Positions 1,195 to 42,275 of a stretch of DNA of 64,000 nucleotides are shown piece after piece. This stretch comes from Fidelibacterota bacterium (GTDB taxonomy: Bacteria; Fidelibacterota; Marinisomatia; SCGC-AAA003-L08; GCA-2689995). The first letter of the stretch is position 1, and the number at the start of each line of letters is the position of its first letter. The stretch spans positions 1 to 64,000 of the forward strand of contig NZIV01000001.1 of NCBI GenBank assembly GCA_002689995.1. Direction: 5' to 3'. The translations under genes were made by a program, and so were the position numbers. Under the pieces are notes generated by a model that saw nothing but the letters and a program-made list of their open reading frames with translations, searched no databases and was not told the DNA's origin.

Positions 1195-2703
1195 ATGAAT
1201 AAATATTTAATTACATTTTTATTTTTAAATATTTTATTTTCAGAATTAAATGAAAATAAAATTCGAAATAGAAACATTCAGCATTTTGTATATCGTCAAA
1301 ATACAAATGTTATAACAAATAATAATCGCAATGAGGAAGAACTCATACAATTTATTCAATCAACAATAGAAACTCATCAAATACCAGGATTATCAATCTC
1401 AATTGTAAAAGATCAATACATTATATGGGAAAAACAATTTGGTTATGCAAATATTAATGATGAGATACAGGTTGATGAGAATACTATGTTTATATTATCA
1501 TCTATTTCAAAGACTATTACTGTAACTGCTTTAATGCAATTATATGAACAAAATATGTTTGAACTTGATGATGATATTAATAATTATTTGCCATTTGATG
1601 TCATTCATCCAACTTATCCTAACACGCAAATTACTTTTAAAATGTTACTATCTCATACATCAGGGATTAAAGATAATTGGAATATTATGACATATTATAA
1701 TAGTGATTCACCTTTATCATTAAATTATTATCTTGAACAGTATTTGACACCAGAAGGAAGTTTTTATAATAGTAATTTAAATTTCACTAATTCAAATCCT
1801 GGTACAAATCATACATACACTAATAATGGTGCTGCGTTAATAGGATTATTAGTTGAAGAAATATCAAATCAATCATTTAGTAATTATTGTAATGAAAATA
1901 TATTTGAACCACTATCAATGGAAAATACATTTTGGTATTTATCTGAAATAAATAATCTTAATCAGGTTGCATTACCATATCAATTAACAGGAGGAAATGG
2001 AGATTCTTGCTTTATTATTGGTTGTGGTATTTATGATCAAAATAATCCGTGTTTTTGTGATTCAGAATGTATTTATTATGATGATTGCTGCTCTGATTAT
2101 AACGAAATTTGCGGAGAAGATGGTACTGGAAGTGATCCTGAAAATCTTACTGAATATGAAAATTACGGTTACTCTGATTATCCATCAGGACAACTTAGAA
2201 CATCCTCAAATAATTTAGCTAAATTTATGGGTGCCTATATGAATGGTGGAACTTATAATGGAGTAAATATTTTAAATTCACAAACAATTGAACTAATTAA
2301 AACTATTCATTATCCAACAATTAATTCAATGCAAGGATTAATGTGGTATTATAAAAATCAAAATGGAAGGATACTTTTTGGGCATAATGGTGGAGATTTA
2401 GGCAGCTTAACAGAAATGTTTATATCATTTTCAGATACTATAGGTATAGTATTATTAAGCAATTCAAATAATTATAATGCAATGATTCAAATAGAAAATG
2501 CATTATTAGAATTTACTGAAGAAACCAATTTTATAATAATAGGAGATATTAATTTAGATAGTATTATTAATATTTTAGATGTAATCCTTATTATAAACAT
2601 TATAATAGATAATCAAAGCTTTACCAATTTAGCTGATTTAAATCAAGATGGACTGATAAATATAATAGATATTCTTCAACTTATAAATTTAATTTTAGAC
2701 TAA
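1195..2703 (+). CDS. secreted class C beta-lactamase-fold serine hydrolase with internal somatomedin-B-like insertion and C-terminal dockerin-like module
   Basis: Signal peptide; 'FILSSISKTITVTALMQLYEQ' (SxxK), 'YTNNGAALIG' (YxN), 'FGHNGGDLG' (HxG); Cys-rich 'SCFIIGCGIYDQNNPCFCDSECIYYDDCCSDYNEIC'; C-term 'GDINLDSIINILDVILIINIII...DLNQDGLINIIDILQLINLILD'. Confidence 0.9.
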   Translation: MNKYLITFLFLNILFSELNENKIRNRNIQHFVYRQNTNVITNNNRNEEELIQFIQSTIETHQIPGLSISIVKDQYIIWEKQFGYANINDEIQVDENTMFILSSISKTITVTALMQLYEQNMFELDDDINNYLPFDVIHPTYPNTQITFKMLLSHTSGIKDNWNIMTYYNSDSPLSLNYYLEQYLTPEGSFYNSNLNFTNSNPGTNHTYTNNGAALIGLLVEEISNQSFSNYCNENIFEPLSMENTFWYLSEINNLNQVALPYQLTGGNGDSCFIIGCGIYDQNNPCFCDSECIYYDDCCSDYNEICGEDGTGSDPENLTEYENYGYSDYPSGQLRTSSNNLAKFMGAYMNGGTYNGVNILNSQTIELIKTIHYPTINSMQGLMWYYKNQNGRILFGHNGGDLGSLTEMFISFSDTIGIVLLSNSNNYNAMIQIENALLEFTEETNFIIIGDINLDSIINILDVILIINIIIDNQSFTNLADLNQDGLINIIDILQLINLILD

Positions 2704-2767
2704 CATATATCCCTTATTTAATAATTAAATAAAAAATTTCATTAAAATATAAAAAGGAAAATAAATA

Positions 2768-3220
2768 ATCAAATTATTAATACCACCACCAATACAAGCA
2801 CTATTATCAGCAATTATGATATGGTTAATAAGTAAATACTTCTATAAAGCTAGTTTCAATTTTAATTTAATAAATGAACTCGCATTGTTATGTTTAATAA
2901 GTGGAATAATTATAATTATTTTAGGCATAAATAAATTTAGATTATCTAAAACTACAATTAGCCCTCTTAAGCCGTCTAAAACATCATATTTAGTTAATGA
3001 TGGAATATATAGTTATACAAGAAATCCTATGTATCTTGGACTCCTTTTAATTTTATTTTCAATTGCTATTTATTTAAAAAACTATATAAGTCTTCTATTT
3101 ATACCATTATTCATATTATTCATAACTAAAAATCAGATTTTACCTGAAGAAAAAACTTTAGAAAATATATTTGGAGAAAGATATAAAAATTATAAAAACA
3201 AGGTTAGACGCTGGATTTAG
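2768..3220 (+). CDS. isoprenylcysteine carboxyl methyltransferase / PEMT-like membrane methyltransferase; start possibly non-AUG (ORF track starts at 2816)
   Basis: 'DGIYSYTRNPMYLGLLLIL' motif and multiple TM helices. In-frame upstream sequence IKLLIPPPIQALLSAI fits the family N-terminus. Confidence 0.75.
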   Translation: MKLLIPPPIQALLSAIMIWLISKYFYKASFNFNLINELALLCLISGIIIIILGINKFRLSKTTISPLKPSKTSYLVNDGIYSYTRNPMYLGLLLILFSIAIYLKNYISLLFIPLFILFITKNQILPEEKTLENIFGERYKNYKNKVRRWI

Positions 3221-3333
3221 ATAGATATTCTACTCTGGGATTAGTATTCTAAAGTTTCGAATACTATTACCTTCACATTAATTATTGAAAAATCCTCTTT
3301 CATATGGACTTTTTATATTTTTAAACTATAGTT

Positions 3334-3855
3334 ATGAAATCTTTAAGTGAAAATGAACATAAATTTCATTGGTGTATAAAAGGAACTTTAGAAACAGCAA
3401 TCTCTTCCTCAGATTTATGGAATATTATCTCTAGTCCTTCAAATTTGGAGTTATTTCATCCTTTTTGTGATAAAAATCCAACGATTAATTGGCCTGGTTT
3501 AAATTCTATTGATCAAATTTATTACTATAGTGGATTGATTTTAGAAAGAAAATTTGTAAAGTGGGTTGATAATCAAGGATATAATTTATTTATTGGTACA
3601 AAAAATGGGAAAAAATCATTTGTTACATGGGAAATTGAAGATAAAGGAAAAAAATCAAAATTAATAATATCAATATATCCACACATTTATAATCAAGGTA
3701 AAAAAATAGTTAATTTTTTACCCTTTTTCTTAATAGTAAAACCTAGTTTGACAAATTATATCAATTCTGTAATTAGCGGTTTAGGTTATTATATTAATAC
3801 AAATAATAAGGTTAAGAAAAATCAATTTGGAACCCACAAATTATTTTCAAATTAA
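3334..3855 (+). CDS. SRPBCC-like (polyketide cyclase/dehydrase fold) protein
   Basis: 'ISSSDLWNIISSPSNLELFHPFCDKNPTINWPG' pattern typical of START/SRPBCC N-termini. Confidence 0.55.
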   Translation: MKSLSENEHKFHWCIKGTLETAISSSDLWNIISSPSNLELFHPFCDKNPTINWPGLNSIDQIYYYSGLILERKFVKWVDNQGYNLFIGTKNGKKSFVTWEIEDKGKKSKLIISIYPHIYNQGKKIVNFLPFFLIVKPSLTNYINSVISGLGYYINTNNKVKKNQFGTHKLFSN

Positions 3856-3858
3856 TTA

Positions 3859-4296
3859 TTGAATAAAAAACACTTTGATAACATAATTAATTGTTATGAC
3901 AATGCTCCAATTAATCAAATTTTTAATCCAAAAATGAAACTAAATTTAGGTGAATGTGAAATTGAAATGAAAATATCTAAAAAATTTCATCACTCAGCTA
4001 ATAGCTTGCATGGTTCTATTTATTTTAAAATGTTGGATGATGCTGCTTGGGCTGCTTCAAATACATATATTGATGATTTTTTTTTATTTACATATAATTT
4101 TAATATATATTTAACTAAACCTGTATCCAATGGTATCATTATTTCTAAAGCTAAAGCAGTTTATGAAAAAAATGGTAAAATTAAAGCAAAATCTTTTCTA
4201 TATGATTCAAAAAACAATGAAATAGCGCATGGAGAAGGACTTTTTATGAAAAGTAAGTACTTATTAAAAGATGCCATTAGTTTTTATAATAAATAA
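3859..4296 (+). CDS. PaaI-like hotdog-fold thioesterase
   Basis: 'HHSANSLHGSIYFKMLDDAAWAASNTYI' and 'FNIYLTKPVSNGIIISKAKAVYEKNGKI'; TTG start. Confidence 0.75.
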   Translation: MNKKHFDNIINCYDNAPINQIFNPKMKLNLGECEIEMKISKKFHHSANSLHGSIYFKMLDDAAWAASNTYIDDFFLFTYNFNIYLTKPVSNGIIISKAKAVYEKNGKIKAKSFLYDSKNNEIAHGEGLFMKSKYLLKDAISFYNK

Positions 4297-4404
4297 ATGA
4301 ATAATGATAAGACCCAAAGAAATCAAAAAAAGTAAATCCTACTACAATTATAATAAATATGAAAGCCTCTTTTATAGAGCTTTTCATATTTTGTAAGTTA
4401 TTTT

Positions 4405-5904
4405 ATGAGAAAATATATATTACTAATATTTTTTATAATAATATATGCAGAAGTTTGGGAAAGCTCCTTTAATGCAGGTAATTATGATTATAACTATAAT
4501 TTTATGGGTGGTTCTGAAGTACTTCAATTAGTTAATCATAAAAATAAATTATTTGCATCAATTAGTTATTGGCAAGATGAATCTAATATATGGTATGGTG
4601 GAAATAATTCTAACATTGGTTGGGCGCAGATAATTTCACTTAGTAGTCCAATTGAAGATTGGTCTGTTGATTTGAATTTAGACTCCTATTATTTAAGACC
4701 AGAAATATTAAAACAAGTTATTTTCACAAAGGATATGTTTAATGATATTTTACCAATTCCTGATACTTTATTAATTGTTGCAGCTTATTCTTCAAATTTT
4801 GTTTTTGGTCCCGTAACTGCAAGTGCATTTGTAAGAAACGATCAAGCTGATAATTGGAATATAACTACTATTTATGAAGGAAACCTTCCAGCTGGTGAAA
4901 GTTATTCAATTAGAGATATGCAAATTTATACGGACCAAATAACAGGTGAGGAGATATTATTTACCTCTGTAGGTACAAATGGAATATTTACAGGTAAATA
5001 TAATCCAAATTTAGAAGGAAAGATTCAATGGGATTCAGTTCCAGAATATGGTCCTCTTGATACAAGACCTCTTAGTATTGTTGTTGCAAATAACGCTTTA
5101 TATTTTTCCTCAGGTAATAAAATATATAAGAGAATTGATGGTTCAAATCCCTCATATTCTATCATACATGATTTTAGTGATTTAAGTTCAAATATCAATT
5201 CATCTGTTGGCGGTATAAGAGGTCTAACGGTCATTGCTAATGAAGAAAACGAATCTATGCTTTTAATGTGGTGTCCTAATAGTCAATCAAAAGGTATAAT
5301 ATTTCGTTTAGATCCTAGTTTAGATGGTAGTTTTGAAAGGGTTTATGAAACTAAACTTTCATTACTTGTAGAAGATTATTTACCGGGTACTTCAGTAAAC
5401 TATATATTAGGAGCATATAATGATTTTCTAAAGATTTTTAATCCTTTAGATAATGAATTCTATCATATAGTTGGCTTTGAATCTACAATTCAAGGAGGGA
5501 ATTACCCTTCTTGGAATAGCTATTATAGTGGAGCCTTATTTGCCGTGAGAAATAGTAATGCTGAATATTCCCTAGAAGAAGTTAATGAATCTATATCATT
5601 TACTGACCCTGAATTAGTAGCAACTAGGTGTTATACAGAATCTCCATTTAACAATGAAAACGCCATTTATTTTGGAGGCTTTGATCCAAATGGTTTCTTA
5701 TCAACAAATAAAGCCTGGATATATAAAAAAAAATATACTTTAAATGGTGATTTAAATAATGATGGAACTATTAACGTAATAGATGTGATCCAATTAGTAA
5801 ATATTATTTTAACAAATGAATATGGAGACAATTTTGATATTAATCAAGATGGAACAGTAAATATTTTAGATATTCTCCAATTAATAAATATAATTTTAAA
5901 TTAA
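4405..5904 (+). CDS. secreted protein of unknown function (possible propeller-like) with C-terminal dockerin-like module
   Basis: Signal peptide MRKYILLIFFIIIYA; C-term 'GDLNNDGTINVIDVIQLVNIIL...DINQDGTVNILDILQLINIILN'. Confidence 0.75.
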   Translation: MRKYILLIFFIIIYAEVWESSFNAGNYDYNYNFMGGSEVLQLVNHKNKLFASISYWQDESNIWYGGNNSNIGWAQIISLSSPIEDWSVDLNLDSYYLRPEILKQVIFTKDMFNDILPIPDTLLIVAAYSSNFVFGPVTASAFVRNDQADNWNITTIYEGNLPAGESYSIRDMQIYTDQITGEEILFTSVGTNGIFTGKYNPNLEGKIQWDSVPEYGPLDTRPLSIVVANNALYFSSGNKIYKRIDGSNPSYSIIHDFSDLSSNINSSVGGIRGLTVIANEENESMLLMWCPNSQSKGIIFRLDPSLDGSFERVYETKLSLLVEDYLPGTSVNYILGAYNDFLKIFNPLDNEFYHIVGFESTIQGGNYPSWNSYYSGALFAVRNSNAEYSLEEVNESISFTDPELVATRCYTESPFNNENAIYFGGFDPNGFLSTNKAWIYKKKYTLNGDLNNDGTINVIDVIQLVNIILTNEYGDNFDINQDGTVNILDILQLINIILN

Positions 5905-6470: not shown

Positions 6471-7649
6471 ATGAAGAATTTAAAGGTTCTAATTTATTCA
6501 CTTATTAAACAAAATAATTTTATAAAATTATTAATTTTATTGTCAATTTCTTTAAATATAATTTATGCTGAATGTATTGACCTTAATTATGATAATTGTA
6601 TTTATTGGTCTTCATATTGTGAATGGAATGAATCAACAAATCAATGTCAAAATATAGGTGAAGATACTATTAACCCTAATGATGGTCCTTTTCAATTTGA
6701 TTCATTTAATGAATCTGATGGTTTAATAAGTAGTGATAATTATTTAAGTGCTACAGTTTTTTATCCAATAAATAGCGAGCCACCCTATAGTAGTATAGTC
6801 ATCGTACCAGGTGCATTTTCTCCTGAAACAATATTACATGAATGGGGACAATATTATGCATCTCATGGATTCATTGCAATGACTATAGGAATAAATGATT
6901 ACTTAAATGATGATATGAGTGATTTAGCTTTTAGTCTTTTAGATGCAATAGAAGTTTTAAAGCTAGAAAATAATAGATCAGATTCGCCCATTTTAAACAA
7001 AGTTAATATTCATAGTTTTGCGACAAGCGGTTGGTCAATTGGTGGAGGTTCAGCGCAATATGCAGCAACAATTGATTCTAGTTTGAAAGCAGTAATTGCA
7101 TTAAATCCAGGTCTTTCTATACAAGATTATGAAAACTGTACAAATCCAACTTATGATTATTATTGTCTTGTACCAGAACATTTAAATCATTCTAGCTCTG
7201 TATTAATTATTTCGAGTGAAGGAGATATTGAAAATCCAACGGATTTAGATGCCGCAGTTCACTATAATTATACCCCTGAATCAACATCTAAAATGTTATT
7301 TGAAATAGAAAATGGAAATCATGAAACTGGATTAAATCCCTACTCAGGATCAGGAGAATTAGGAGAAAAGGTTATTAATTGGCTTAAATATCACTTATTA
7401 GAAAATTCTAATTATTGTAATATTTTACTTGATATTCCAATCAGCGCTTCTCAGTTTTATACAAATATAGAGTGTCAAGAACTTTTACTAGGAGACATAA
7501 ATGGAGACAACATCGTTAATGTTCAAGATATTCTTTTAGTAATTGATTATATTTTAAATAATGAGTACAATAACAGTGCTGACTTAAACTTAGACGAATT
7601 TACAGATGTATTAGATATTCTGTTAATTATAAACATTATACTAAGCTAA
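6471..7649 (+). CDS. secreted PET-hydrolase/cutinase-like alpha/beta hydrolase with C-terminal dockerin-like module
   Basis: 'GPFQFDSFNESD...YLSATVFYPINSEPPYSSIVIVPGAFSPETILHEWGQYYASHGFIAMTIGIND', nucleophile 'GWSIGGGS', acid 'SSEGDIENPTD', His 'ENGNHETGLNP'; C-term 'GDINGDNIVNVQDILLVIDYIL...DLNLDEFTDVLDILLIINIILS'. Confidence 0.85.
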   Translation: MKNLKVLIYSLIKQNNFIKLLILLSISLNIIYAECIDLNYDNCIYWSSYCEWNESTNQCQNIGEDTINPNDGPFQFDSFNESDGLISSDNYLSATVFYPINSEPPYSSIVIVPGAFSPETILHEWGQYYASHGFIAMTIGINDYLNDDMSDLAFSLLDAIEVLKLENNRSDSPILNKVNIHSFATSGWSIGGGSAQYAATIDSSLKAVIALNPGLSIQDYENCTNPTYDYYCLVPEHLNHSSSVLIISSEGDIENPTDLDAAVHYNYTPESTSKMLFEIENGNHETGLNPYSGSGELGEKVINWLKYHLLENSNYCNILLDIPISASQFYTNIECQELLLGDINGDNIVNVQDILLVIDYILNNEYNNSADLNLDEFTDVLDILLIINIILS

Positions 7650-8083: not shown

Positions 8084-8257
8084 AACCTCACTTGATAATA
8101 TAGTTTTTTCTAATTACAATTAGTTTTTAAAAAAAGAAATTGATTTTTTTAAAATTTAGAATTTAAATTGATTAGTTGTGAATTCTTATTTAAAACACCT
8201 AATTTCCTAGTAAGAAAGTATCTTTTATTCAAGCTTTCATATACAATAGATTTAGCT

Positions 8258-9499
8258 ATGAGAAAATATTTAATAATAATATCGATGGCATTATGTTTTT
8301 CGCAAGATTGTGATGATAATATGTTAATGTTTGATTGCGATGGGCTCGCTTTTTGTAATAATGAAGCTGATTTTGGATTTGATTGCTATGTAAACAATGA
8401 ATATTGTGATGATTTTAATCAAGATGGAATTACTGATTCTTGGGTGGGAGATGGATGGTGTGATGATGGAGAATGGGGTTATGATTTTCAATGTGAGGAG
8501 TATAGTTTTGATTGTGGCGATTGCAGTGATGATTTTTTAAACACTCATGGATATTGTAATGATATTCCTGTAGAACATACTTTTAATCATGAGGGTCTTT
8601 CAAGGCTATATTATATATATGAACCTAATATAATTCAAGATAATCCTCCTCTAGTCTTCATTATGCATGGATTTACTGGATCAGCTTTAGGTATAAGTAA
8701 TTATTCCGGTATGAATACCTTAGCTGATGAATATGGTTTCGTTGTTTGTTATCCTCAAGGAACTTCTGACCAAAATGGTAATAACTTTTGGAATGTAGGA
8801 TATAACTTTCATGACAATATTGAAGTGGATGATGTCTCATTCATAATATCACTTGCTGAATATTTACAAGATGAATATGGTTATGATACTAATAATACTT
8901 TTGTAGCAGGCATGTCAAATGGTGCAGAAATGTCTTATAAATTAGCATGTGAAACTGATAATTTTTTTAAATCTATTGCTGCAGTTGCCGGAACCATGTT
9001 TGGTGTTTCTTGGAATTCCTGTAATCCTAATCCTATACCAGTTATGGAAATACATGGTACAAATGATAATGTAACTTTATGGAATGGTGATTATAATGAT
9101 ACTTACTGGGGTCCTTATCCTGGGGTAGAAGAAGTAATTGATTTTTGGGTCGAAGAAAATGATTGTACTAGAAATGAAGAACTCATTTTGCAAAATACAA
9201 ACACCATTAAGAACAGATATTTTGATTGTATTGATAATGCTGAAGTATGGCTTTATGAAGAGGTAGGAGGTGGACATGATTGGCCAAATTACTCAAGTCA
9301 GGAGATTTGGAATTTTTTTAGCCAATATATCTTTAATTTAGGTGATGTTAATGGTGATAATGAAATTAATATTTTAGATGTTATGCAAGTTATAAACTTA
9401 ATTTTATTAAATCAATTTGAGCAAAGTAGTGATTTAAATGAAGATGAGATCGTAAATGTTATTGATGTAATCCAACTTATAAATATTATTTTAAACTAA
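8258..9499 (+). CDS. secreted PHB-depolymerase/LpqC-like esterase with N-terminal Notch/LNR-like Cys-rich region and C-terminal dockerin-like module
   Basis: ORF opens at 8168 but the signal peptide starts at M 8258 (MRKYLIIISMALCFSQDC). 'VGDGWCDDGEWGYDFQCEEYSFDCGDC'; 'PLVFIMHGFTGSALG', 'FVAGMSNGAEMSYKLAC', 'VMEIHGTNDNVTLW', 'GGGHDWPN'; C-term paired F-hands. Confidence 0.87.
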   Translation: MRKYLIIISMALCFSQDCDDNMLMFDCDGLAFCNNEADFGFDCYVNNEYCDDFNQDGITDSWVGDGWCDDGEWGYDFQCEEYSFDCGDCSDDFLNTHGYCNDIPVEHTFNHEGLSRLYYIYEPNIIQDNPPLVFIMHGFTGSALGISNYSGMNTLADEYGFVVCYPQGTSDQNGNNFWNVGYNFHDNIEVDDVSFIISLAEYLQDEYGYDTNNTFVAGMSNGAEMSYKLACETDNFFKSIAAVAGTMFGVSWNSCNPNPIPVMEIHGTNDNVTLWNGDYNDTYWGPYPGVEEVIDFWVEENDCTRNEELILQNTNTIKNRYFDCIDNAEVWLYEEVGGGHDWPNYSSQEIWNFFSQYIFNLGDVNGDNEINILDVMQVINLILLNQFEQSSDLNEDEIVNVIDVIQLINIILN

Positions 9500-9566: not shown

Positions 9567-10610
9567 ATGAGAAAAAGTTTACTTCTATATTTTTCTATAA
9601 TGTTTTCACAAGATTTATTTGAATCTTCACAACTTAATACATTAACAAATTGGTTTCAAGAGCCTTTAGGATGGACTTATCCATTAGAAATTAATATACC
9701 TGATTTAACTACACCTGAAACTGGTTTCCCAGTTTGCATTTTACTGCATGGTTTTGGTGGTAACGGAAATCAGCTAGTTTACCAATATCAAAATATTTTA
9801 AATACTCAAATTCTTATTGCGCCAACAGGATATATGAATAGTTGGAATATTAGCAATGAACCTAGTAAAGCTCCTGATGTAGAAATGATATCCGATTTAG
9901 TAAATCAACTACAATTATTTAATAACATTAATTCAGATAAAATTAGAATTATTGGATTTTCAAATGGTGCAGCATTAGCTAATAGAATATTCATAGAAAA
10001 TTATAATAGTGGCATAGATATTATATGTTCGATTGTATCTCAATTATCCGAGGCGCAATACCATAATGATAATTTTTATTATCCATCAAATGGGACTAAT
10101 GGTAATCAAGAATTTAACGGATATAATGATATAGCAATTCCTTTAATAGGCAGAAAATATTTGAATATTGGGAATATAAATGACCCTATTATTCCATATT
10201 TTGGAGGTGCAGCAGTTGGAGTAAACTTTTTAAACTCACTAAATTCAATATATCTTATAGCCAAAAGCCAAGGGTATCAAGGTGATATTTTATCTGATGA
10301 AGAAGGCATTGAAATAGATGGTTCATCTACTTATGAATATAATTACTTATCAAATCAAGTAGTTCATTTAAAAGGTAATTCTGGTCATAATCTGAATACT
10401 TATCAGCAACAATATTTAGTTAATTATTTAGAAAGCAGTCCAGATTATGGTGATTTAAATCAGGATAATTTAGTTAATATTTTAGATGTAGTTATTTTGG
10501 TTAATTATGTATTGCAAAATATAAATCAATCAATAGAATATGATCTAAATCAGGATGATAATATTAATATTTTGGATATAATATTGCTCATAAATATCAT
10601 TTTAGTATAA
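9567..10610 (+). CDS. secreted alpha/beta hydrolase (esterase-like) with C-terminal dockerin-like module
   Basis: 'PVCILLHGFGGNGNQLVYQYQNIL', 'IRIIGFSNGAALANRIF'; C-term 'GDLNQDNLVNILDVVILVNYVL...DLNQDDNINILDIILLINIILV'. Confidence 0.82.
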   Translation: MRKSLLLYFSIMFSQDLFESSQLNTLTNWFQEPLGWTYPLEINIPDLTTPETGFPVCILLHGFGGNGNQLVYQYQNILNTQILIAPTGYMNSWNISNEPSKAPDVEMISDLVNQLQLFNNINSDKIRIIGFSNGAALANRIFIENYNSGIDIICSIVSQLSEAQYHNDNFYYPSNGTNGNQEFNGYNDIAIPLIGRKYLNIGNINDPIIPYFGGAAVGVNFLNSLNSIYLIAKSQGYQGDILSDEEGIEIDGSSTYEYNYLSNQVVHLKGNSGHNLNTYQQQYLVNYLESSPDYGDLNQDNLVNILDVVILVNYVLQNINQSIEYDLNQDDNINILDIILLINIILV

Positions 10611-10833: not shown

Positions 10834-12228
10834 ATGAAATTATCTATTTATGTCTTAATATTATTTAATTCTTTATTTTCTGAAGCTGAATTATCAGCAA
10901 ATAAAGATACCCTAATTGTCGGAGAGCATATAGAAGCTCATTTTAATGATTTAAATAGTTATGGTAGTGATTGGATTGGAATATTTTCAATTAATGCTTC
11001 CAATGAGGAATATCTTTATTGGCAGTATACAGATGGAACACAAAATAATAATTATAATTTTATTAGCTCAGGTTTTATAAATTTTTCTCCTATTTCATTA
11101 TCTTCAGGACAATATGAGCTAAGATTATTTTATAATAATAACTATGAGTTGATATCTTCTTATCCATTCACAGTTATTGATAATTGTAATACCAATCTCT
11201 CTTCTGATTTTGAAGATACATTTAATGTTATGACTTTTAATACTTGGTATAGTGCACAATATGGTTATGGTGGATTAGGTCGTGTTGCAGAAATTATTAC
11301 TGAATTAGATATAGATATAATTGGATTTCAAGAAACAAATCCCGGTTCAATTATTGAAATAAAATCATTACTTTATGATTTCGATGGTTATGAAGAATTA
11401 TTTTCAACACCCTCTGAATCAAATATATCAATTATCTCTAGATTTCCTATAATTGATACCATAGACTATAATCTCTATGGAGTTGGTGCTAATGTATTAA
11501 TATCTAATTATGATACACTTAAATTTATTTCCTCACATTTAACCGCCTATCCTTATGGTCCATATGATTTATATCAAGGAGTTTCATCCGAGGATGTTAT
11601 TAATAATGAGTTATCAACTAGATATATTGAAAATTTAGATATTTATAATCAAATAATAACTAACCATGAATATAGTCCTAATTTGCCTATAATATATGTA
11701 GGAGATCATAATACGCCTTCAATATTAGATTGGGGTGAAAATAATATAAATCAAAATTTTGGGTTCCAAATTGATTGGCCAGTTTCTCAATTTTTATTAA
11801 ATAATGGCTTCTATGACTCGTATAGATATATACATCCATTGGTAGAAAATAATATTGGTCTAACCTGGTCTCCAGGATATCCTAAAAATACTTTTGATAA
11901 TGGAGAAATACATGACAGAATTGATATGATATACTTTAAAAATGGTTATTCTAAGAACTTGTATCCTCTAAATTCATATATATATGATTGTGATCCTTGG
12001 CCTTCTGATCATAGAGCTGTTGTTACAGAGTTTGCAATGTGTTTTGATGTAGAAATTGGTGATATAAATTTAGATTTTATAATTAATATTCTTGATATTC
12101 TATCCTTGGTAAATGAAATACTCTACTCCTCAAATTTATATTGTTTATATATTTATGGGGATATTGATAATAATCAAGAATTAAATATTACTGATATAAT
12201 TCAATTAGTATCATTAATATTAAATTAA
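10834..12228 (+). CDS. secreted endonuclease/exonuclease/phosphatase (EEP) family protein with C-terminal dockerin-like module
   Basis: 'FNVMTFNTWYSAQYG', 'DIIGFQETNPG', 'ISSHLTAYP', 'YVGDHNTPS', 'IHDRIDMIYF', 'WPSDHRAVVTEF'; C-term 'GDINLDFIINILDILSLVNEIL...GDIDNNQELNITDIIQLVSLILN'. Confidence 0.88.
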   Translation: MKLSIYVLILFNSLFSEAELSANKDTLIVGEHIEAHFNDLNSYGSDWIGIFSINASNEEYLYWQYTDGTQNNNYNFISSGFINFSPISLSSGQYELRLFYNNNYELISSYPFTVIDNCNTNLSSDFEDTFNVMTFNTWYSAQYGYGGLGRVAEIITELDIDIIGFQETNPGSIIEIKSLLYDFDGYEELFSTPSESNISIISRFPIIDTIDYNLYGVGANVLISNYDTLKFISSHLTAYPYGPYDLYQGVSSEDVINNELSTRYIENLDIYNQIITNHEYSPNLPIIYVGDHNTPSILDWGENNINQNFGFQIDWPVSQFLLNNGFYDSYRYIHPLVENNIGLTWSPGYPKNTFDNGEIHDRIDMIYFKNGYSKNLYPLNSYIYDCDPWPSDHRAVVTEFAMCFDVEIGDINLDFIINILDILSLVNEILYSSNLYCLYIYGDIDNNQELNITDIIQLVSLILN

Positions 12229-12615: not shown

Positions 12616-13914
12616 ATGAAAAATATAATCTCTATATTTTTAATATCATCATTAATTTTTTCACATTCATTTTTAGATAATTTCAATATTTTTAATAATA
12701 GAACAGATGGTGATATTAATAATGATGGCGTAGTCAATGTTCAAGATATAATTATATTGGTTAATTTTATTTTAACTAATGGTTCTAATGATAATGCAGA
12801 TATTAATAATGATGGTCTTATCAACGTAATAGATGTTATCCAAGTTGTAAATATTATATTATATGGCCCTATTGCAGATGATTGTAATGAAGAAAATTTT
12901 TCTACTGATGGAATACTTACTAATATAGATGAACAGATTTATAATAATGATGAATCTATAAATTCATATAGTATATACTCCTGGTCTCAAGATGACCAAG
13001 ACAGAATATTATCAGGTAATGGAATACCAAATCATGAGGTTGGTACTTTTCCTAACGCTAATTGCCCTAATTCCATCACAGAACAAAATATAAACCATAG
13101 TTTTTCCCTTTATCCTGAAATAGTATCAGAACAAGGTGAATCTGTCGGTGGTCCTGGAGGAGTAATCGCATATGCTTTGAATAGTGTAAAATTTGATCCA
13201 GGTACTGCTGGTAGATGTAATGACAATGGTGTATGTAGTTTAGCTCAGGGAAATGGTAATTGGAGTATTGAGGCTTTGGGGCATGAAACATTTGATTTTG
13301 GTGATGATATGAATCATGCTCATGTTCAACCAAATGGTGCATATCATTATCATGGAATGCCAGACCTCTTGATTGATTTTTTAAATGATGATGAATCAAT
13401 ATTACTAATAGGATGGGCTTCAGATGGTTTTCCAATTTATGCTGAATATGGATATTCAGATGCTTGTGATAATCAAAGTGAAATTATAGAGCTTCAGCCA
13501 AGTTGGCGGTTAAAAGATTCTCCTGATTTAGGGCGACCAGAAATATTAACAGAATTAACTGGTGGACCAGGTTCAGGTTCAGGGCTTAATATTCCAATAC
13601 CTATGGGTGCTTTTACCCAGGATTTTGAATATATTGAAGGTTCTGGTGATTTAGATGAATGTAATGGTAGAATTGGTGTTACCCCTGAATTTCCTGATGG
13701 GATTTATCATTATATGGTTACTAATCAATTCCCATATTTTTCTAGATGCTTAAAAGGTGATTTTAACGGTACAGGTGGTGGTACAGGTGGTGGTGGTACA
13801 GGCGGTGGTAACCCTCCTGATTGTGAAAATGTCCCCCAAGGTATGCCTTGTTGTGGGGATGGCATCTGTGGAGGTCCTGAAAATAATAGTAATTGCCCTG
13901 AAGATTGTCAATAA
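12616..13914 (+). CDS. secreted YHYH-domain protein with N-terminal dockerin-like module and C-terminal Cys-rich tail
   Basis: 'GDINNDGVVNVQDIIILVNFIL...DINNDGLINVIDVIQVVNIIL' near N-term; 'NGAYHYHGMPDLLI', 'GWASDGFPIYAEYGY'; Gly/Thr-rich linker then 'CCGDGICGGPENNSNCPEDC'. Confidence 0.85.
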   Translation: MKNIISIFLISSLIFSHSFLDNFNIFNNRTDGDINNDGVVNVQDIIILVNFILTNGSNDNADINNDGLINVIDVIQVVNIILYGPIADDCNEENFSTDGILTNIDEQIYNNDESINSYSIYSWSQDDQDRILSGNGIPNHEVGTFPNANCPNSITEQNINHSFSLYPEIVSEQGESVGGPGGVIAYALNSVKFDPGTAGRCNDNGVCSLAQGNGNWSIEALGHETFDFGDDMNHAHVQPNGAYHYHGMPDLLIDFLNDDESILLIGWASDGFPIYAEYGYSDACDNQSEIIELQPSWRLKDSPDLGRPEILTELTGGPGSGSGLNIPIPMGAFTQDFEYIEGSGDLDECNGRIGVTPEFPDGIYHYMVTNQFPYFSRCLKGDFNGTGGGTGGGGTGGGNPPDCENVPQGMPCCGDGICGGPENNSNCPEDCQ

Positions 13915-18567: not shown

Positions 18568-19518
18568 ATGAATCGAATAGTATTATTATCTATATTTTAT
18601 TTGGCATTTGGTCAGGCAAATCAAGTGGTAACAGGATATTTAATGCAAAATGAAATATCTATTTGTATGGAGTATTGTGGTGAGTATTATATAGAAACTT
18701 ATGACGATATATATTGGCCTGTCGTTTTTGATGACAACATACAAAATATCAATCTTTATCTAAATAGATATATTGAAGTCTTGATTGGGAGTGAAGTTAA
18801 TTGCACTGAATGTAACGCACATCAAATTCAAGAAATTAATTTTTCTGACGATTGTGTTTATATTCCTGACTGCTTCGTAGACCCATGTGAAATAGCTCCT
18901 GAATGTCAAATTAATACTCAAACAGAATGTATATCTAACTTCTGTGGTGGATGTTATGCAGACTTCTATGATTATAACGGTAATCTTATTGATTGTAATT
19001 CAGTAGAATGTGAAAATGGAGAAATCAACAATAATAATCCATGTAATCCACTAGAGTGCTGGAATGGAGAATGGTTTGAAATAATTATAGATTGTCAAGA
19101 ACAAATGGGAGTTCCTTGTTTAGGAGGAGTTTATATACCTCCTGTAGAAGGAGAATGTTGTTCAATATGCAGTCTATTTGGCGATTTAAATAATGATTTA
19201 GAAGTAAATGTTTTAGATATAGTTCTGATAGTAAGCTTTATATTAATTACAAATGAGCCTACAAATGCTGAGCTGACTGTAGGAGATATTAACTCAGATG
19301 GGCAGCTTAATGTATTGGATATAGTTGCAATTGTTCAAATAATTTTAAATCCTATGAACGAAGAATGCTATATTGAGCCAGAAATTGGTCCTTGCGAGGG
19401 AATCTGTCCCACCTATTATTTTAATCATAATACTAATGAATGTGTAGAATTCATAACTGGATGTTGTGGTCTTGAAGCATTCTATACTCTAGAAGAATGT
19501 GAGATTACATGTGAATAA
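18568..19518 (+). CDS. secreted Cys-rich protein: CGGC/VWC-like region, internal dockerin-like module, C-terminal Kunitz/BPTI-like domain
   Basis: Signal peptide; '[34 protein letters not shown]'; '[13 protein letters not shown]...[21 protein letters not shown]'; '[22 protein letters not shown]...[22 protein letters not shown]'; '[49 protein letters not shown]'. Confidence 0.8.
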
Positions 19519-20055: not shown

Positions 20056-21105
20056 ATGTATAAGTTAAAAATTTTTATTATTACCTCTTTTTTATTCATG
20101 CAAGATTTTGATCAGCTAGAATTTGGTAATCAAAATCATTTAGATATTATTACATGGAATATAGAATGGTTCCCTAAAAATGAACAAATTACAATAGATT
20201 ACGTAGCACAAATTATAGAAGCACTTGATGTTGATCTTATTGCTATGCAAGAATTAGATGATACCGTCCTTTTTAATCAGATGATTAATGATTTAGATAA
20301 TTACAATTCATATTATGAATCCTCTTGGTTTGCAGGATTAGCATTCATATATAAAAGTAATGAAATTGAAATTAATAATATTTATGAAATATATACAACA
20401 TCAGAATACTGGAGTCCCTTCCCAAGATCTCCTATGGTTTTAGATATGAACTTTTTAGGTGAAAATTATATAATAATTAATAACCATTTTAAGTGCTGTG
20501 GTGATGGCATTTTAGATCTTAATGATAATGGCGATGAAGAAATGAGAAGATATATCGCTAATAATCTTTTAAAAGAATATATAGAATTAAATTTCAATGA
20601 GAATAATGTAATTTTACTGGGCGATCTTAATGATTCCTTGACAGATGAAGTAGAAAATAATATTTTCCAAATGTTTATTGATGATAGCGAAAACTATTTA
20701 TTTGTAGATATGCCAATTGCCCAAGGCGATATTATCGAATGGTCATTCCCTAATTGGCCATCTCACTTAGACCATATAATTATATCAAACGAACTGTTTT
20801 CAATTTTTGAAAATGGAAATTCTTATTGTGAAACAATAAAAATTGATGATTATTTTGATGGTGGATTCTATGAGTATGATCAAAATATATCTGACCATAG
20901 ACCTATAGCTTTAAAACTAGCAGTACAGAATAGTATATTAGGAGATATTAATGAAGATAGCTTAATTAATATTCAAGATATTTTATTAATTATAAATATT
21001 ATACTAAGTAATGAATATAATTATAATGGTGATATTAATACTGACAATACAATTGATATACTTGATGTAATACAAATTATTAATATAATATTATATCAGT
21101 CATGA
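20056..21105 (+). CDS. secreted EEP-family nuclease/phosphatase with C-terminal dockerin-like module
   Basis: 'LDIITWNIEWFPKN', 'LIAMQELDD', 'IINNHFKCCGDG', 'ILLGDLNDS', 'SHLDHIIIS', 'ISDHRPIAL'; C-term 'GDINEDSLINIQDILLIINIIL...DINTDNTIDILDVIQIINIILYQS'. Confidence 0.9.
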   Translation: MYKLKIFIITSFLFMQDFDQLEFGNQNHLDIITWNIEWFPKNEQITIDYVAQIIEALDVDLIAMQELDDTVLFNQMINDLDNYNSYYESSWFAGLAFIYKSNEIEINNIYEIYTTSEYWSPFPRSPMVLDMNFLGENYIIINNHFKCCGDGILDLNDNGDEEMRRYIANNLLKEYIELNFNENNVILLGDLNDSLTDEVENNIFQMFIDDSENYLFVDMPIAQGDIIEWSFPNWPSHLDHIIISNELFSIFENGNSYCETIKIDDYFDGGFYEYDQNISDHRPIALKLAVQNSILGDINEDSLINIQDILLIINIILSNEYNYNGDINTDNTIDILDVIQIINIILYQS

Positions 21106-24655: not shown

Positions 24656-25990
24656 ATGCAGAAGTTTTTTGTTTTTTATTTTTTATCTCTAATATTTTCA
24701 GAACCAACAATAGATTGGTTTAATACTTATAATGGTTCCGGAGAAGAATCTCATGGCCATTATATATTAACATGTGAAGACGGTGGATACCTTCAGGTTG
24801 GTGAAACAGATTTTTTACCGAACTCAAAAATTTATATAGTAAAAACGAATTCAAATGGACAGCTATTGTGGGAAAGAGAGATCTATAATGGTGGTCATAA
24901 TTTAGGAAATAGCGCAATAGAAATGACTGATGGATACCTTATTTGTGGTGCGATAAATAGAAATAGTGTAGTAATAAAACTTGATAAAGAATCTGGTGAA
25001 ACTATTTTCTCTGAAACTTATAATAATGGTGGTACCGATGCATTTGAACATGCTGCAGTGACACCAAATGGTATAGTTGCAGTGGGTTATAAAAATTCTC
25101 AAGACTCAAACAATACTTTTTACACTGAAGGACAAGGGCTAGTGACTTTTCTTAATTATGATGGTACTCAAATAAATAGTATTAATATAAATAATTACAT
25201 TTCACAAGCATATCGAATTTTCAATATTAATAATGAATTAATAATTTCAGGATTAACAGAAGAAGCCTTCGACTATAAATTGATAAAAATGTCATTAGAT
25301 GGTGAAATAATTTGGCATTATGAATATGGTGGAAATAATTATGACCACTGTTTTGGTATGGATATAAATGATAATGGAGATATTTTTTTAACTGGACATA
25401 CATTATCTGGAACAGAAAATTGGGATACTTATACAATAAAAATAGATAATAATGGAAACCAGTTATGGGAGAAAAAAGTTGGAAATCCTAGACAGTTTAA
25501 TCCACAATATATTCATGATGAAGCTTGGGGAATAAAAGCCACATATGATGGTGGTTGTGTAGTAATTGCTGGTACAGGAGATGAGTATGGAAACTATTCA
25601 GAATGTAATGGTTCTGATTGCTCTGATACCTGGAATGCATATTTAATTAAATTTGATAATCTTGGGAATATAGAATGGGAGAACACCTTTTCATCTTTAG
25701 ATATTTCTAATCAATCCTATGATTGGGCCGGTGAAGATATAGACTTAACAGAAGATGGTGGAGCTATAATTGCAATTGATAGTGGACAATTTGGATTCTT
25801 AAAAATATCAAACATTCAAAATAATCTTATCGGTGATATAAATTTAGATAATACCATAGACGTTCTTGATATTATACTAATTGTTAATATGATTCTATCA
25901 AACACAGAAAATGATTCAGGAGATTTAAATTCTGATAATGAAATAGATATATTAGATATTGTTATTTTAGTAAATATAATTTTAGAATAA
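24656..25990 (+). CDS. secreted beta-propeller-like protein with C-terminal dockerin-like module
   Basis: Repeated 'IKTNSNGQLLWEREIYNGG...', 'KIDNNGNQLWEKKVGN', 'KFDNLGNIEWENTF' blades; C-term 'GDINLDNTIDVLDIILIVNMIL...DLNSDNEIDILDIVILVNIILE'. Confidence 0.83.
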   Translation: MQKFFVFYFLSLIFSEPTIDWFNTYNGSGEESHGHYILTCEDGGYLQVGETDFLPNSKIYIVKTNSNGQLLWEREIYNGGHNLGNSAIEMTDGYLICGAINRNSVVIKLDKESGETIFSETYNNGGTDAFEHAAVTPNGIVAVGYKNSQDSNNTFYTEGQGLVTFLNYDGTQINSININNYISQAYRIFNINNELIISGLTEEAFDYKLIKMSLDGEIIWHYEYGGNNYDHCFGMDINDNGDIFLTGHTLSGTENWDTYTIKIDNNGNQLWEKKVGNPRQFNPQYIHDEAWGIKATYDGGCVVIAGTGDEYGNYSECNGSDCSDTWNAYLIKFDNLGNIEWENTFSSLDISNQSYDWAGEDIDLTEDGGAIIAIDSGQFGFLKISNIQNNLIGDINLDNTIDVLDIILIVNMILSNTENDSGDLNSDNEIDILDIVILVNIILE

Positions 25991-26073: not shown

Positions 26074-28422
26074 ATGAAAAACTACATATTAATCACACTA
26101 TTATTCACACTTTCTTATACTCAAATCCAGCAAGAAGGATTTCCAAATTTTATTAATTCAAATAATATTAAAAATATTGAATCAATCAAAGTAAATAAAA
26201 ACCAATTAATTGAAAAAAAATTTCATCCAATGGTTTTGAAATATGGAGATGAATTTTCAATAAATTTTAACATAGTGAATAATATAAACCCCATTCAATC
26301 TAATAATACACTCACCTATTTGTTAAAAATTGAATCTAAGGGTGCCCTTGGAATAGGGCTTATCTTTGATGATTTTTATTTATCAGATAATTCTACCTTG
26401 TACTTATATAATGAAGATGGTAGTATGTACATTGGAGCATTTACATCTAAAAATAATAAAAAATCAAATATTTTCCCCACGAGTATTGTAAAAAATGATA
26501 AAATAATTATTGAATTAAATATACCTGAAGATGAAATTGGGCAATCGAGATTAAATATTGGTTCTCTAATACATGACTACACAGATATAATGGGCTATTT
26601 TTCAGATTTAGAAAACACAACAAGAGAAGATTGTAATATAAATGTTTCATGCCCTGAAAGTGCTGGCTTCGAAGACCAAATTAATGGTACAATTAGAGTT
26701 ACAATGGGTGGTGGATTATGCTCTGCTTCTTTAATAAATAATACACTTAATGATAGGACGCCATACGTTTTATTTGCAGACCATTGTGTCAGTGGTAGCC
26801 CAAATAGTTATGTGTTTTTGTTCAACTATCAATCAGCAACATGTAATGGAACTACGGGATTACAGACTCAAAGTGTAAGTGGCTCAAACCTACTTGCAAA
26901 CGCTGATATTGATTCTGGGCCGGACTTTGCTCTATTAGAAATTACATCAAATATACCAGATTCTTATAATCCTTATTTTGTTGGATGGTCAAATATAAGT
27001 ATTACTCCACAAAATGTATTAGGTATTCATCATCCGGGTGGTGACATAAAAAAGATAACCCAAGATGCTACAAATATAAATGCAAATGGATATTATTGGG
27101 AATTCCAATATAATGATGGAAGAGTTATACCCGGCTCATCTGGTTCTCCAATGTTTAATCAAAATAAAAGACAAGTAGGTATTGCAAGTTATATTTATAC
27201 TAATTATTGCGATCCATCTCCGGATTGTTATTGTTCCCAACAATATAATCATGGATATGGTCGTTTTGATCAAGCATGGAATATGGGACTTAGCCAATAC
27301 TTAGATCCGATTAATTCTGGTGTAAGTTTTATTGATGGTATTGGAATTAGTGGAATAAATATAGCTCATGAAAATTTAAATGATATACCTTATGAAGAAA
27401 CTTCCATATCAATCAGTGCTGAAGTAACTTCTTATTTAGGAAATATTGAAGTTGTTGAACTATCCTATGATATTGGTGAAGGATGGAATACAACGGAAAT
27501 GACTCTGAACTTAGATCAATATGAAGGAAATATATCTGGATTATATGATGGAATGATAGTTGAATATTTTTTAATGGCATTAAATTCAGATGGTATAACT
27601 CAATACTATCCACCAAATGGTACTGAAAATCCCATTTATTTTACAGTGGGAGATTTACCAGATTTTTATTCAACAGAATTTGAAACAGAATTAAATAATT
27701 GGACAATTGGAAGCGATGAAGATAATGCGACAGCAGGGATATGGGAGCTAGCAGATCCAGTAGGAACATATAATGATAATAATTTACTAATTCAACCAGA
27801 TTCTGATCACACTTTAAATGGTACTCAGTGTTTTATTACTGGAAATGGTTATGAAAGTGGAAATGGTGGATTTGATGATGTTGATGGAGGTAAGACAACC
27901 CTATCTAGTCCAACTTTTGATTTAAGTAATACTAATGAGGTATTAGTCACTTATTGGTATTGGTATACAAACAACATTGGAGATAATGGTGGAAGTGATA
28001 AATGGAAAGTTCAAGTTTCCTCTAATGGAGGTAATAGTTGGAATGATCTTCACATTACTGCTAATTCAAATACTGAATGGATAAAGAAGAGAATAAAACT
28101 ATCAGATTATACTAATCTAACTAATAATATTAAATTTCAATTTATCGCTGAGGATATATCTTATAATGGTGATACTGGTAGTGGAGGTTCACTTGTAGAG
28201 GCTGCTTTAGATGATTTTCTAATTGAGATTGTTAATTCTAATTTAGGTATTACAGGTGATATAAATAGTGACAATTTAGTCAATATTTTAGATGCAGTGA
28301 TTATTATCAATATGATATTGGATTTAATCCCTTCTGATTTTTCTACAGCAGATTTAAATTCAGATAATACAATTAATATTTTAGATATTATAATTTTAAT
28401 TAATATAATTTTAAATTCTTAA
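26074..28422 (+). CDS. secreted trypsin-fold serine protease (lysyl-endopeptidase-like) with C-terminal dockerin-like module
   Basis: 'CSASLINNTLNDRTPYVLFADHCVSG', 'GPDFALLEI', 'VIPGSSGSPMFNQNKRQVGIASY' triad context; later beta-sandwich-like 'FYSTEFETELNNWTIGSDEDNATAGIWELADP'; C-term paired F-hands. Confidence 0.85.
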   Translation: MKNYILITLLFTLSYTQIQQEGFPNFINSNNIKNIESIKVNKNQLIEKKFHPMVLKYGDEFSINFNIVNNINPIQSNNTLTYLLKIESKGALGIGLIFDDFYLSDNSTLYLYNEDGSMYIGAFTSKNNKKSNIFPTSIVKNDKIIIELNIPEDEIGQSRLNIGSLIHDYTDIMGYFSDLENTTREDCNINVSCPESAGFEDQINGTIRVTMGGGLCSASLINNTLNDRTPYVLFADHCVSGSPNSYVFLFNYQSATCNGTTGLQTQSVSGSNLLANADIDSGPDFALLEITSNIPDSYNPYFVGWSNISITPQNVLGIHHPGGDIKKITQDATNINANGYYWEFQYNDGRVIPGSSGSPMFNQNKRQVGIASYIYTNYCDPSPDCYCSQQYNHGYGRFDQAWNMGLSQYLDPINSGVSFIDGIGISGINIAHENLNDIPYEETSISISAEVTSYLGNIEVVELSYDIGEGWNTTEMTLNLDQYEGNISGLYDGMIVEYFLMALNSDGITQYYPPNGTENPIYFTVGDLPDFYSTEFETELNNWTIGSDEDNATAGIWELADPVGTYNDNNLLIQPDSDHTLNGTQCFITGNGYESGNGGFDDVDGGKTTLSSPTFDLSNTNEVLVTYWYWYTNNIGDNGGSDKWKVQVSSNGGNSWNDLHITANSNTEWIKKRIKLSDYTNLTNNIKFQFIAEDISYNGDTGSGGSLVEAALDDFLIEIVNSNLGITGDINSDNLVNILDAVIIINMILDLIPSDFSTADLNSDNTINILDIIILINIILNS

Positions 28423-36636: not shown

Positions 36637-36638
36637 AA

Positions 36639-39143: not shown

Positions 39144-39173
39144 AAACTTATATAATAACAAGGAGGTAATCAC

Positions 39174-40133: not shown

Positions 40134-40156
40134 ATATATATCTAAATAAATTACTG

Positions 40157-40184
40157 GGGGAGATGCTATCATCTCCCCTTTTTT
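40157..40184 (+). terminator. Rho-independent terminator of flagellin
   Basis: GGGGAGAT-GCTATC-ATCTCCCC-TTTTTT. Confidence 0.93.
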
Positions 40185-40247
40185 ATTTTATAAAATTTTT
40201 TCATTATATAATATTTAAATTTCCATTAATGCAATTATATTATTTTA

Positions 40248-42275
40248 ATGAAGATTATTAAAAATATAAGTAAAATATATTTGATTTATTATATATTTGT
40301 AGCAAGTTCACTAATTTTTGCTGAAAATATTCTATTTCAATTTAAAAATGAATTTATAAATTATAATAAAAATGAGCTTATGGAACTTATTCAAATACCA
40401 CATAACCTAAAAATCGAAAAGTGGTTAAGCACATCTACTCCCCAAGATATTTATAAAAACTCTAACCTTTCTTTAATATATCGTATTTCATTACCTAAAG
40501 ACTATGTTAACAAAGAGGGAATTATATTCAAACTAAATAATACTCCCGAAATTAGATTTGTTGAATTTGAAAATATCCATAAGATTCATTATTTACCCAA
40601 TGATCCACAATTCTCCGAACAATGGTATTTAAACCAAATAAAATTACAAGAAGCATTAGATAACTGGGATATAACTAATGGAGAACTACCAAATTCAGAA
40701 AATATTATCCTTGCTGCAGTAGATGTTGGTGTTGATTGGACACATGAAGATTTAATTAATAATATTTGGCAAAATTTAGATGAAGATGCAGATAATGATG
40801 GAAAAACTATTGAATGTAATGGTTTTTTAGAAAATAATATATGTAATGGTAATTGGATATTAGACCCTGATGATTTAAATGGCATTGATGATGATAATTG
40901 GGATGGTGATCAATCAACACTTATAGATGATTTAATTGGCTGGGACTTTGTTGGAGAAGTTGGAATTTCTGATAATAATCCAAAGCCTAATTTAGAAAAT
41001 GAATATTATAGTGGCTGGAATCATGGAACACATGTTGCAGGCTTATTATCATCCAGAACAGACAACTTTTTAGGAATTGCATCACCTGCCTTTAATGGTA
41101 AAATTATGCCTTTAAAATGTACTATGGAAAGTTCAGGTTCTAATTTGACTGTGATAAATGGTTTTGATGCAATGCTATATGCGGCAAAAAAAGGATATTA
41201 TTCTGACAACTTGACCATAATTAATGCATCTTGGGGTAGTAATATTTTTTCACAATTTGAATTAGAAATTATTTCCTTGATAAGTGAAAATTATAATTCA
41301 ATTATTGTAGCATCTGCAGGAAATGGGTATAATAATTTGCAAATTAATGCAATGACATTCCCAGCATCTTATGAACCAGTCATATCTGTTTCACCACTGG
41401 GAATAAATGATAATTGGAATCACTGGGCAAACTATCATAATACCATAGATATTTCTGCCCCAGGAGAATCTATAATTTCTACTTCTATGAATAATCAATA
41501 CTCAATTTATACAGGCTCATCGCAGGCAAGCCCATTAGTGGCATCAAGTATCGCTCTTTTATCAGCAAATTTTCCAGAATATAATACAAAACAATTAATA
41601 AGAATGATTTTAGAAACCGCGGATTCCTCAATATATGAAATTAATAATGAAAGTTATTTACAAAACAATTTAGGTCATGGTCGAATCGATTTAAAAACAT
41701 CATTAATGACTCCTCTCTTCCCCAAATTTTCTACATCAATTAATACGTTTGAAGTTTTAAATGATTTAGATGGTTTACCTAGTGCAGGCGACTCGATAAA
41801 AATTACACTAAATATACATAACTCAGAAAACTGGGGCGATGCAGACAGTATTACTATATCACCATACGTTTTAAATCCATTTATATCTTTAATTGCAGAA
41901 GATATTTTTATCTCAAATTTAAATTCTGGTCAAACTAGTTCAATAACTGATAATGAACTAAAAATATACTTTTCAACTGAACTATTATCTGGAAATTATT
42001 ATTTATATTTGTCTATTTATGCTAATCAATATTCTCCTGGGTTAGATTATTATCAAGAACTCTCTATTCCTTTATTTATTTATGATATGATTTATTATGG
42101 TGATGTGAATAATGACCAAAATGTTGATATTATGGATGCAATAATTACTCAAGAGATTATATATGATAATCTTTCTGAAATTGATTATTCCATATCTAAT
42201 GCAAATTTAAATTTTGATGATACTATTAATATTTTTGATATTGTTTTAATAATTGAAAAAATAATAAATAATTAA
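40248..42275 (+). CDS. secreted subtilisin-family (S8) serine protease with C-terminal dockerin-like module
   Basis: 'LAAVDVGVDWTHEDL' (Asp), 'WNHGTHVAGLLSS' (His), 'YTGSSQASPLVASSIALL' (Ser); C-term 'GDVNNDQNVDIMDAIITQEII...ANLNFDDTINIFDIVLIIEKIINN'. Confidence 0.92.
   Translation: MKIIKNISKIYLIYYIFVASSLIFAENILFQFKNEFINYNKNELMELIQIPHNLKIEKWLSTSTPQDIYKNSNLSLIYRISLPKDYVNKEGIIFKLNNTPEIRFVEFENIHKIHYLPNDPQFSEQWYLNQIKLQEALDNWDITNGELPNSENIILAAVDVGVDWTHEDLINNIWQNLDEDADNDGKTIECNGFLENNICNGNWILDPDDLNGIDDDNWDGDQSTLIDDLIGWDFVGEVGISDNNPKPNLENEYYSGWNHGTHVAGLLSSRTDNFLGIASPAFNGKIMPLKCTMESSGSNLTVINGFDAMLYAAKKGYYSDNLTIINASWGSNIFSQFELEIISLISENYNSIIVASAGNGYNNLQINAMTFPASYEPVISVSPLGINDNWNHWANYHNTIDISAPGESIISTSMNNQYSIYTGSSQASPLVASSIALLSANFPEYNTKQLIRMILETADSSIYEINNESYLQNNLGHGRIDLKTSLMTPLFPKFSTSINTFEVLNDLDGLPSAGDSIKITLNIHNSENWGDADSITISPYVLNPFISLIAEDIFISNLNSGQTSSITDNELKIYFSTELLSGNYYLYLSIYANQYSPGLDYYQELSIPLFIYDMIYYGDVNNDQNVDIMDAIITQEIIYDNLSEIDYSISNANLNFDDTINIFDIVLIIEKIINN

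Follow-up and report, generated by a model that had tools for sequence, protein, structure and literature searches.

Anchoring scaffoldins with a single cohesin are known from Clostridium thermocellum (OlpA and SdbA) and Ruminococcus flavefaciens (ScaE), and noncellulosomal cohesin and dockerin modules were reportedly described by Peer et al. in 2009. The Marinimicrobia (SAR406), a candidate phylum abundant in the dark ocean, have hardly been cultured, and little is understood of the way in which they attack particles. For Candidatus Stygibacter, a member of the Cloacimonadota, a cellulosome-like complex has been inferred in which dockerin-bearing enzymes are combined with a scaffoldin ending in a C-terminal domain (CTD) of the type IX secretion system (T9SS) (Williams et al. 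2021, PMC8542988). A search of open-access papers yielded none that links dockerins to Marinimicrobia or SAR406. Here we describe a stretch of 64,000 nucleotides, called the window below, which comprises positions 1 to 64,000 of contig NZIV01000001.1 (assembly GCA_002689995.1) of a Fidelibacterota bacterium belonging to the Marinimicrobia. Twelve coding sequences (CDSs) of the window encode proteins with a dockerin-like tag, in which an original prediction had seen either an export or sorting signal or a partner for an unlinked cohesin. Sequence comparison makes it likely that these proteins belong to a cohesin-dockerin surface-assembly system which is anchored by T9SS and whose cargo consists mainly of peptidases, esterases and nucleases.

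The dockerin tag in the window and in the genome

All twelve tagged CDSs were located at their predicted coordinates, and each of the encoded proteins possessed a paired F-hand (Table 1). Eleven matched Pfam Dockerin_1 (PF00404) with E-values from 2e-4 to 3e-10. The dockerin of CDS 10834 was not matched by Pfam at E 0.01; both of its calcium loops (D-x-N/D-x-D/N-x-x-x-N-x-x-D) were seen by eye, and it co-aligned with the other 84 dockerins of the genome described below. The tag was C-terminal in ten proteins, N-terminal in CDS 12616 and internal in CDS 18568, and the catalytic partners were unrelated according to Pfam, all of which agrees with the original prediction. CDS 8258 starts at an in-frame ATG within an open reading frame (ORF) that begins with TTG at 8168; the ATG start gives a better signal peptide.

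The window is part of a metagenome-assembled genome (MAG) of 2.91 Mb in 87 contigs. Dockerin_1 gave 86 matches in the whole genome, 84 of which exceeded the curated cut-off, so the tag in the window is not a chance occurrence. The twelve window proteins and the ORFs of the remaining matches, with one match left out, made up a set of 85 dockerin proteins that were read fully or partly. In the alignment of this set the Asp at position 12 of both loops was invariant (85/85) and the Asp at position 1 was found in at least 84, the two F-hand calcium loops displaying the conserved residues D1/N3/D5/N9/D12 of type I dockerins. Fifty-eight proteins ended at the dockerin, 17 additionally carried a T9SS CTD and 10 showed other arrangements. 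A C-terminal CTD of their own, the hallmark of T9SS cargo, was absent from 68 of the 85. A signal-peptide-like start, called by a simple hydropathy rule, was present in 73 of the 81 dockerin proteins with a complete N-terminus and in 17 of the 45 other CDSs of the window (Fisher p=9e-10). Several of the eight signal-negative proteins were short duplicated ORFs or had doubtful starts. The correlation of tag and secretion signals, on which the original prediction had made its sorting idea depend, is found in this comparison.

The cargo consisted mostly of peptidases, esterases, nucleases and deiminases, three PAD-type deiminases with dockerins among them; one GH5, one GH81 and two CBM6 proteins were also included, and some of the cargo exceeded 1500 amino acids (aa). 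The dockerin count is slightly inflated, as positions 1-4232 of the window are duplicated on contig C80 (L220, G000:C80:3298-7529) with 99.7% identity and contigs C6 and C31 share another near-identical dockerin-bearing stretch. The MAG includes strain variants.

Cohesin proteins and the type IX secretion system

The statement in the original prediction that there is no cohesin, scaffoldin or T9SS-type CTD holds inside the 64-kb window but not for the genome, where single- and multi-cohesin CTD proteins as well as SprA and the PorV family are encoded (Table 1). Pfam PF00963 (cohesin) identified two loci and further cohesins were found with a profile iterated on relatives; CTDs gave 82 matches in the genome. 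The main single-cohesin protein, called the adapter here, consists of a signal peptide, one cohesin and a CTD. The top PDB sequence matches of the adapter family profile were the noncellulosomal cohesins 2vo8 and 2jh2 (E 1e-4), and the Foldseek neighbours of its AlphaFold model (pLDDT 79) were the cohesins 2jh2, 2vo8, 6kge and 3ul4 (TM about 0.7); the predicted fold of the adapter is that of a cohesin. By PF00963, PDB matches and Foldseek, the adapter and the scaffoldins possess both the sequence and the beta-sandwich fold of cohesins, and both have the signal peptide and CTD (TIGR04183/PF18962/PF13860) expected of proteins delivered by T9SS. SprA was found on contig C67 (599 bits) and, in a sample of 60 genomes including this one, in 59. 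Six genes of the PorV family were above the cut-off.

A search of viral contigs for adapter relatives was uninformative, nearly all matches lying in the CTD region. Six loci of relatives (L125, L126, L129, L137, L138 and L140) encode small cohesin proteins of another type, which have a signal peptide with a lipoprotein-like Cys, a DNP(L/I)-rich stretch and one cohesin, and no CTD. This type is also present in dockerin-free genomes and so represents a second class of cohesins, perhaps anchored by lipid.

Table 1. Positions and composition of dockerin and cohesin proteins (window coordinates where numbers are given as a range of nucleotides only)
Feature	Location	Strand	Evidence or composition
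C-terminal dockerin, beta-lactamase-family serine hydrolase (CDS 1195-2703)	2542..2697	+	PF00404 E 1.6e-7, PF00144 E 7e-48
C-terminal dockerin, secreted protein with no further Pfam domain (CDS 4405-5904)	5746..5898	+	PF00404 E 2.5e-10
C-terminal dockerin, PETase-like alpha/beta hydrolase (CDS 6471-7649)	7488..7643	+	PF00404 E 3e-7, PF12740 E 2e-29
C-terminal dockerin, PHB-depolymerase-type esterase (CDS 8258-9499, ORF from 8168)	9338..9493	+	PF00404 E 9e-9, PF10503 E 7e-12
C-terminal dockerin, alpha/beta hydrolase-like protein (CDS 9567-10610)	10446..10604	+	PF00404 E 8e-8
Divergent C-terminal dockerin, endonuclease/exonuclease/phosphatase-family protein (CDS 10834-12228)	12058..12225	+	both F-hand loops visible, alignment
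N-terminal dockerin, YHYH-domain protein (CDS 12616-13914)	12709..12861	+	PF00404 E 4e-6, PF14240 E 2e-60
Internal dockerin, then Kunitz-type domain (CDS 18568-19518)	19180..19338	+	PF00404 E 1.6e-8, PF00014 E 3e-6
C-terminal dockerin, endonuclease/exonuclease/phosphatase-family protein (CDS 20056-21105)	20938..21093	+	PF00404 E 1.7e-6, PF03372 E 2e-11
C-terminal dockerin, secreted protein (propeller in the original prediction; no other Pfam match) (CDS 24656-25990)	25832..25984	+	PF00404 E 2.4e-4
C-terminal dockerin, trypsin-like peptidase (CDS 26074-28422)	28255..28413	+	PF00404 E 4e-9, PF13365/PF00089
C-terminal dockerin, S8 subtilase (CDS 40248-42275)	42096..42263	+	PF00404 E 2e-4, PF00082 E 1e-33
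Small adapter	contig C7, L122:3416-4177 (minus strand)		253 aa: signal peptide, one cohesin, CTD
Single-cohesin CTD protein	contig C41		281 aa
Similar protein, in tandem beside the 281-aa protein	contig C41		272 aa; judged by eye
CTD protein with at least 6 cohesins	contig C59		1,764 aa
CTD protein with at least 3 cohesins	contig C74		2,291 aa
Dockerin protein with cohesins, own genome	L231		cohesin-cohesin-dockerin
Dockerin protein with cohesin, own genome	L253		cohesin-dockerin
Dockerin proteins with cohesin, own genome	L200, L240		cohesin-dockerin-x-CTD
Single-chain proteins of relatives	L261, L171 (G054); L277 (G050); L278 (G056); L280 (G057); L286 (G007)		dockerin-cohesin-CTD
Single-chain proteins of relatives	L279/L281/L282 (G006); L285 (G012); L292 (G009)		dockerin-cohesin-CTD

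Distribution of the adapter

In the sample of 60 genomes, 27 were dockerin-rich (at least 30 dockerin matches). The small adapter was found by its profile, which had been trained on sequences of the families f1, f3 and f4, in 26 of these 27, and in none of the 11 genomes of the sister family f5, which contain 0-2 dockerins each. At genus level the adapter was present in 13 of 14 dockerin-rich genera and in 5 of 20 others (Fisher p=1e-4). Almost all adapter matches named in databases were from MAGs of Candidatus (Neo)Marinimicrobia. The adapter gene lay within the order recN-murA-adapter-trkA-trkH in f1, f3 and f4, and the trkA-trkH side was retained in f7 and f9; we take the neighbours to be these genes from recognition of their sequences. 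That this order is kept across families speaks for vertical inheritance of the gene and against a casual duplication.

Single-chain combinations and exchange of tags

In relatives of several families a dockerin, a clear cohesin and a CTD were combined in one chain. About 14 proteins of the genome under study showed a dockerin and a CTD separated by a module of about 95 aa. If cis arrangements were ancestral and trans pairing had arisen later, dockerin-poor outgroups would be expected to have their dockerins mainly in dockerin-cohesin-CTD chains. Contrary to this expectation, of 30 dockerins sampled from such outgroups 22 were terminal and 7 stood in cis, and of 35 sampled from dockerin-rich genomes 29 were terminal and 1 stood in cis; we do not claim that order of events. 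Cohesin-dockerin-cohesin(-CTD) proteins were also noticed outside the Marinimicrobia, in the Hydrothermota (L191) and the Zixiibacteriota (L192), hinting at a wider occurrence of the T9SS-linked arrangement in the FCB group.

Dockerin and CTD appear to replace each other in paralogues. A pair of beta-propeller proteins, one ending in a dockerin (L228:237-3464) and the other in a CTD (L378:117-2855), was 42% identical over 417 aa, and the similar part stopped short of the dockerin by about 5 residues and of the CTD motif by about 20. Gingipain-type C25 peptidases, which together with PAD belong to the classic cargo of T9SS in Bacteroidota, carried a dockerin in L198, L222 and L241 and a CTD in L374.

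Proposed assembly and export

The observations suggest the following scheme. About 80 proteins exported by Sec and carrying the dockerin tag would dock on the cohesins of proteins that end in a T9SS CTD, namely the adapter encoded between murA and trkA, related small proteins and the multi-cohesin scaffoldins. By means of its CTD, each cohesin protein would pass through SprA over the outer membrane and be attached or released there, and the dockerin cargo would thereby be retained in surface or secreted complexes. The cargo itself might cross the outer membrane together with the adapter, or by another route and dock afterwards. We infer the physical binding of dockerins to cohesins and the surface location of the cargo, and likewise its passage across the outer membrane, from the computed features. 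Of the options in the original prediction, the scheme favours a partner for an unlinked cohesin, and the cohesin-CTD proteins encoded elsewhere in the genome are the candidates for that cohesin.

Several points weigh against this scheme. G001 of family f2 (49 dockerins, 72% complete), the sole exception among the dockerin-rich genomes, has no small adapter. The co-occurrence of adapter and dockerins is uncorrected for phylogeny. Four dockerin-poor outgroup genomes (f7, f9; 0-3 dockerins) contain the adapter; judging from them, the adapter probably predates the dockerin expansion, and its first role may have been something else than serving dockerins. The module of about 95 aa between dockerin and CTD is weakly cohesin-like (hhalign 79%, E 1.6e-5; weak HMM matches), and Foldseek results for a model of such a dockerin-linker-CTD tail were dominated by tandem Ig matches, the CTD alone being clear (8qb1, 8glk). 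The PorU-like sortase scored 283 bits, below the curated cut-off of 420 bits. Finally, the MAG has an estimated contamination of 7.3%, which its strain variants may explain.

A tentative proposal is that dockerin cargo is already bound by the cohesin-CTD adapter in the periplasm and that the two pass SprA as a complex, the dockerin being a detachable T9SS export signal and not an anchor used after export. It would account for dockerin-terminal proteins that belong to classic T9SS families such as C25 peptidases and PAD and have no CTD, for the exchange of dockerin and CTD between paralogues, and for an adapter made up of exactly one cohesin and one CTD. In addition, the type II secretion protein GspD was not found over the cut-off in the genome, although there may be other routes across the outer membrane. 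A precedent for such co-translocation was not found in the open-access papers searched, however, the large CTD proteins with several cohesins speak for assembly on the outside, and cargo of more than 1500 aa would form very big complexes. That a single adapter with one cohesin and one CTD exports about 80 unrelated folded proteins through SprA by piggyback is possible but doubtful.

The dockerin itself might be the export or sorting signal, for T9SS or another machine and independently of cohesins, as in the display system of the original prediction. The high uniformity of the tag and its near-terminal position in 58 of 85 proteins could be read in this way. Some 27 dockerins are non-terminal, however, cohesins with CTDs are present, the adapter follows dockerin richness and no dedicated receptor other than cohesin was seen. 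The data can be explained without a self-sufficient signal, which we regard as improbable.

A scaffoldin with several cohesins (at least 6 on the C59 protein, at least 3 on the C74 protein) together with dockerin enzymes is what would be expected of a conventional cellulosome for plant-type polysaccharides, and the GH5, GH81 and CBM6 proteins would fit into it. The genome thus largely presents what the original prediction had named as its refutation, scaffoldins whose cohesins may match the tag, but the system differs from a classical cellulosome. Its cargo is dominated by peptidases, esterases, nucleases and deiminases in place of glycoside hydrolases for plant cell walls, no CBM3 was present in the two scaffoldins scanned (C59, C74) and no SLH or sortase anchoring was seen among the proteins read. 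A cellulosome of the conventional kind is hence very unlikely. It is just as hard to believe that dockerins serve as spacers stabilised by calcium, or as partners within one molecule, and take no part in trans assembly, since most are terminal on cohesin-free proteins and stand-alone single-cohesin proteins are conserved, even if dockerin and cohesin stand side by side in several chains (cohesin-dockerin, dockerin-cohesin-CTD) and could pair in cis there.

Other features of the window

The protein of CDS 18568-19518 is secreted and combines cysteine-rich regions and the dockerin with a Kunitz/BPTI-type domain, which is unusual for bacteria. In CDS 1195-2703 a somatomedin-B-like domain (PF01033) is inserted ahead of the dockerin. 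With regard to the PETase-like CDS 6471-7649, a survey of PETases assigned 47 of 98 homologues of the FCB group to Marinimicrobia (PMC8767016). Genes for flagellin and MotA/MotB at 39174-40133 and 45147-46699 imply flagellar motility, and LpxB and LpxK, also encoded in the window, point to a diderm that makes lipid A.

Comparison with known systems

The term "undescribed" in the original prediction was too strong in view of Candidatus Stygibacter, for which a similar set was inferred: enzymes (peptidases S8 and C25, GH18, GH57) that have a signal peptide and end in a dockerin, and a large scaffoldin in which tandem cohesins are combined with a CTD of the T9SS type (PMC8542988). There, however, one scaffoldin of 3,755 aa with CBM2/CBM3 is described together with a handful of enzymes (PMC8542988), whereas in our genome, from a different phylum, about 80 cargo proteins occur with a single-cohesin CTD adapter encoded in a conserved housekeeping operon. 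OlpA, SdbA and ScaE share with the adapter the signal peptide, the single cohesin and a surface anchor, and they bind dockerins directly; their anchors are of the SLH or sortase type in Gram-positive bacteria, whereas the adapter has a T9SS CTD in a diderm. The noncellulosomal cohesins of Clostridium perfringens (NagJ/sialidase) provide the first PDB matches of the adapter profile, but they are located on glycosidases, and none of them is known to possess a T9SS tail or a comparably large dockerin secretome. With the T9SS cargo of Bacteroidota (gingipains, PAD) the system shares cargo families, SprA, the PorV family and CTDs with a YPNPFNP motif, yet several such cargo types end here in a dockerin and not in a CTD.

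If the scheme is correct, genomes with 30 to more than 100 dockerin proteins and a T9SS-anchored cohesin would make cohesin-dockerin assembly a general surface strategy in these bacteria, beyond its special use by degraders of cellulose, and the single adapter would open outer-membrane export to direct experiment. The system looks like a relative of the cellulosome that is large and serves general purposes. New relative to prior art are the far larger cargo set and its richness in peptidases, the single-cohesin adapter conserved in an operon, and the interchange of tags.

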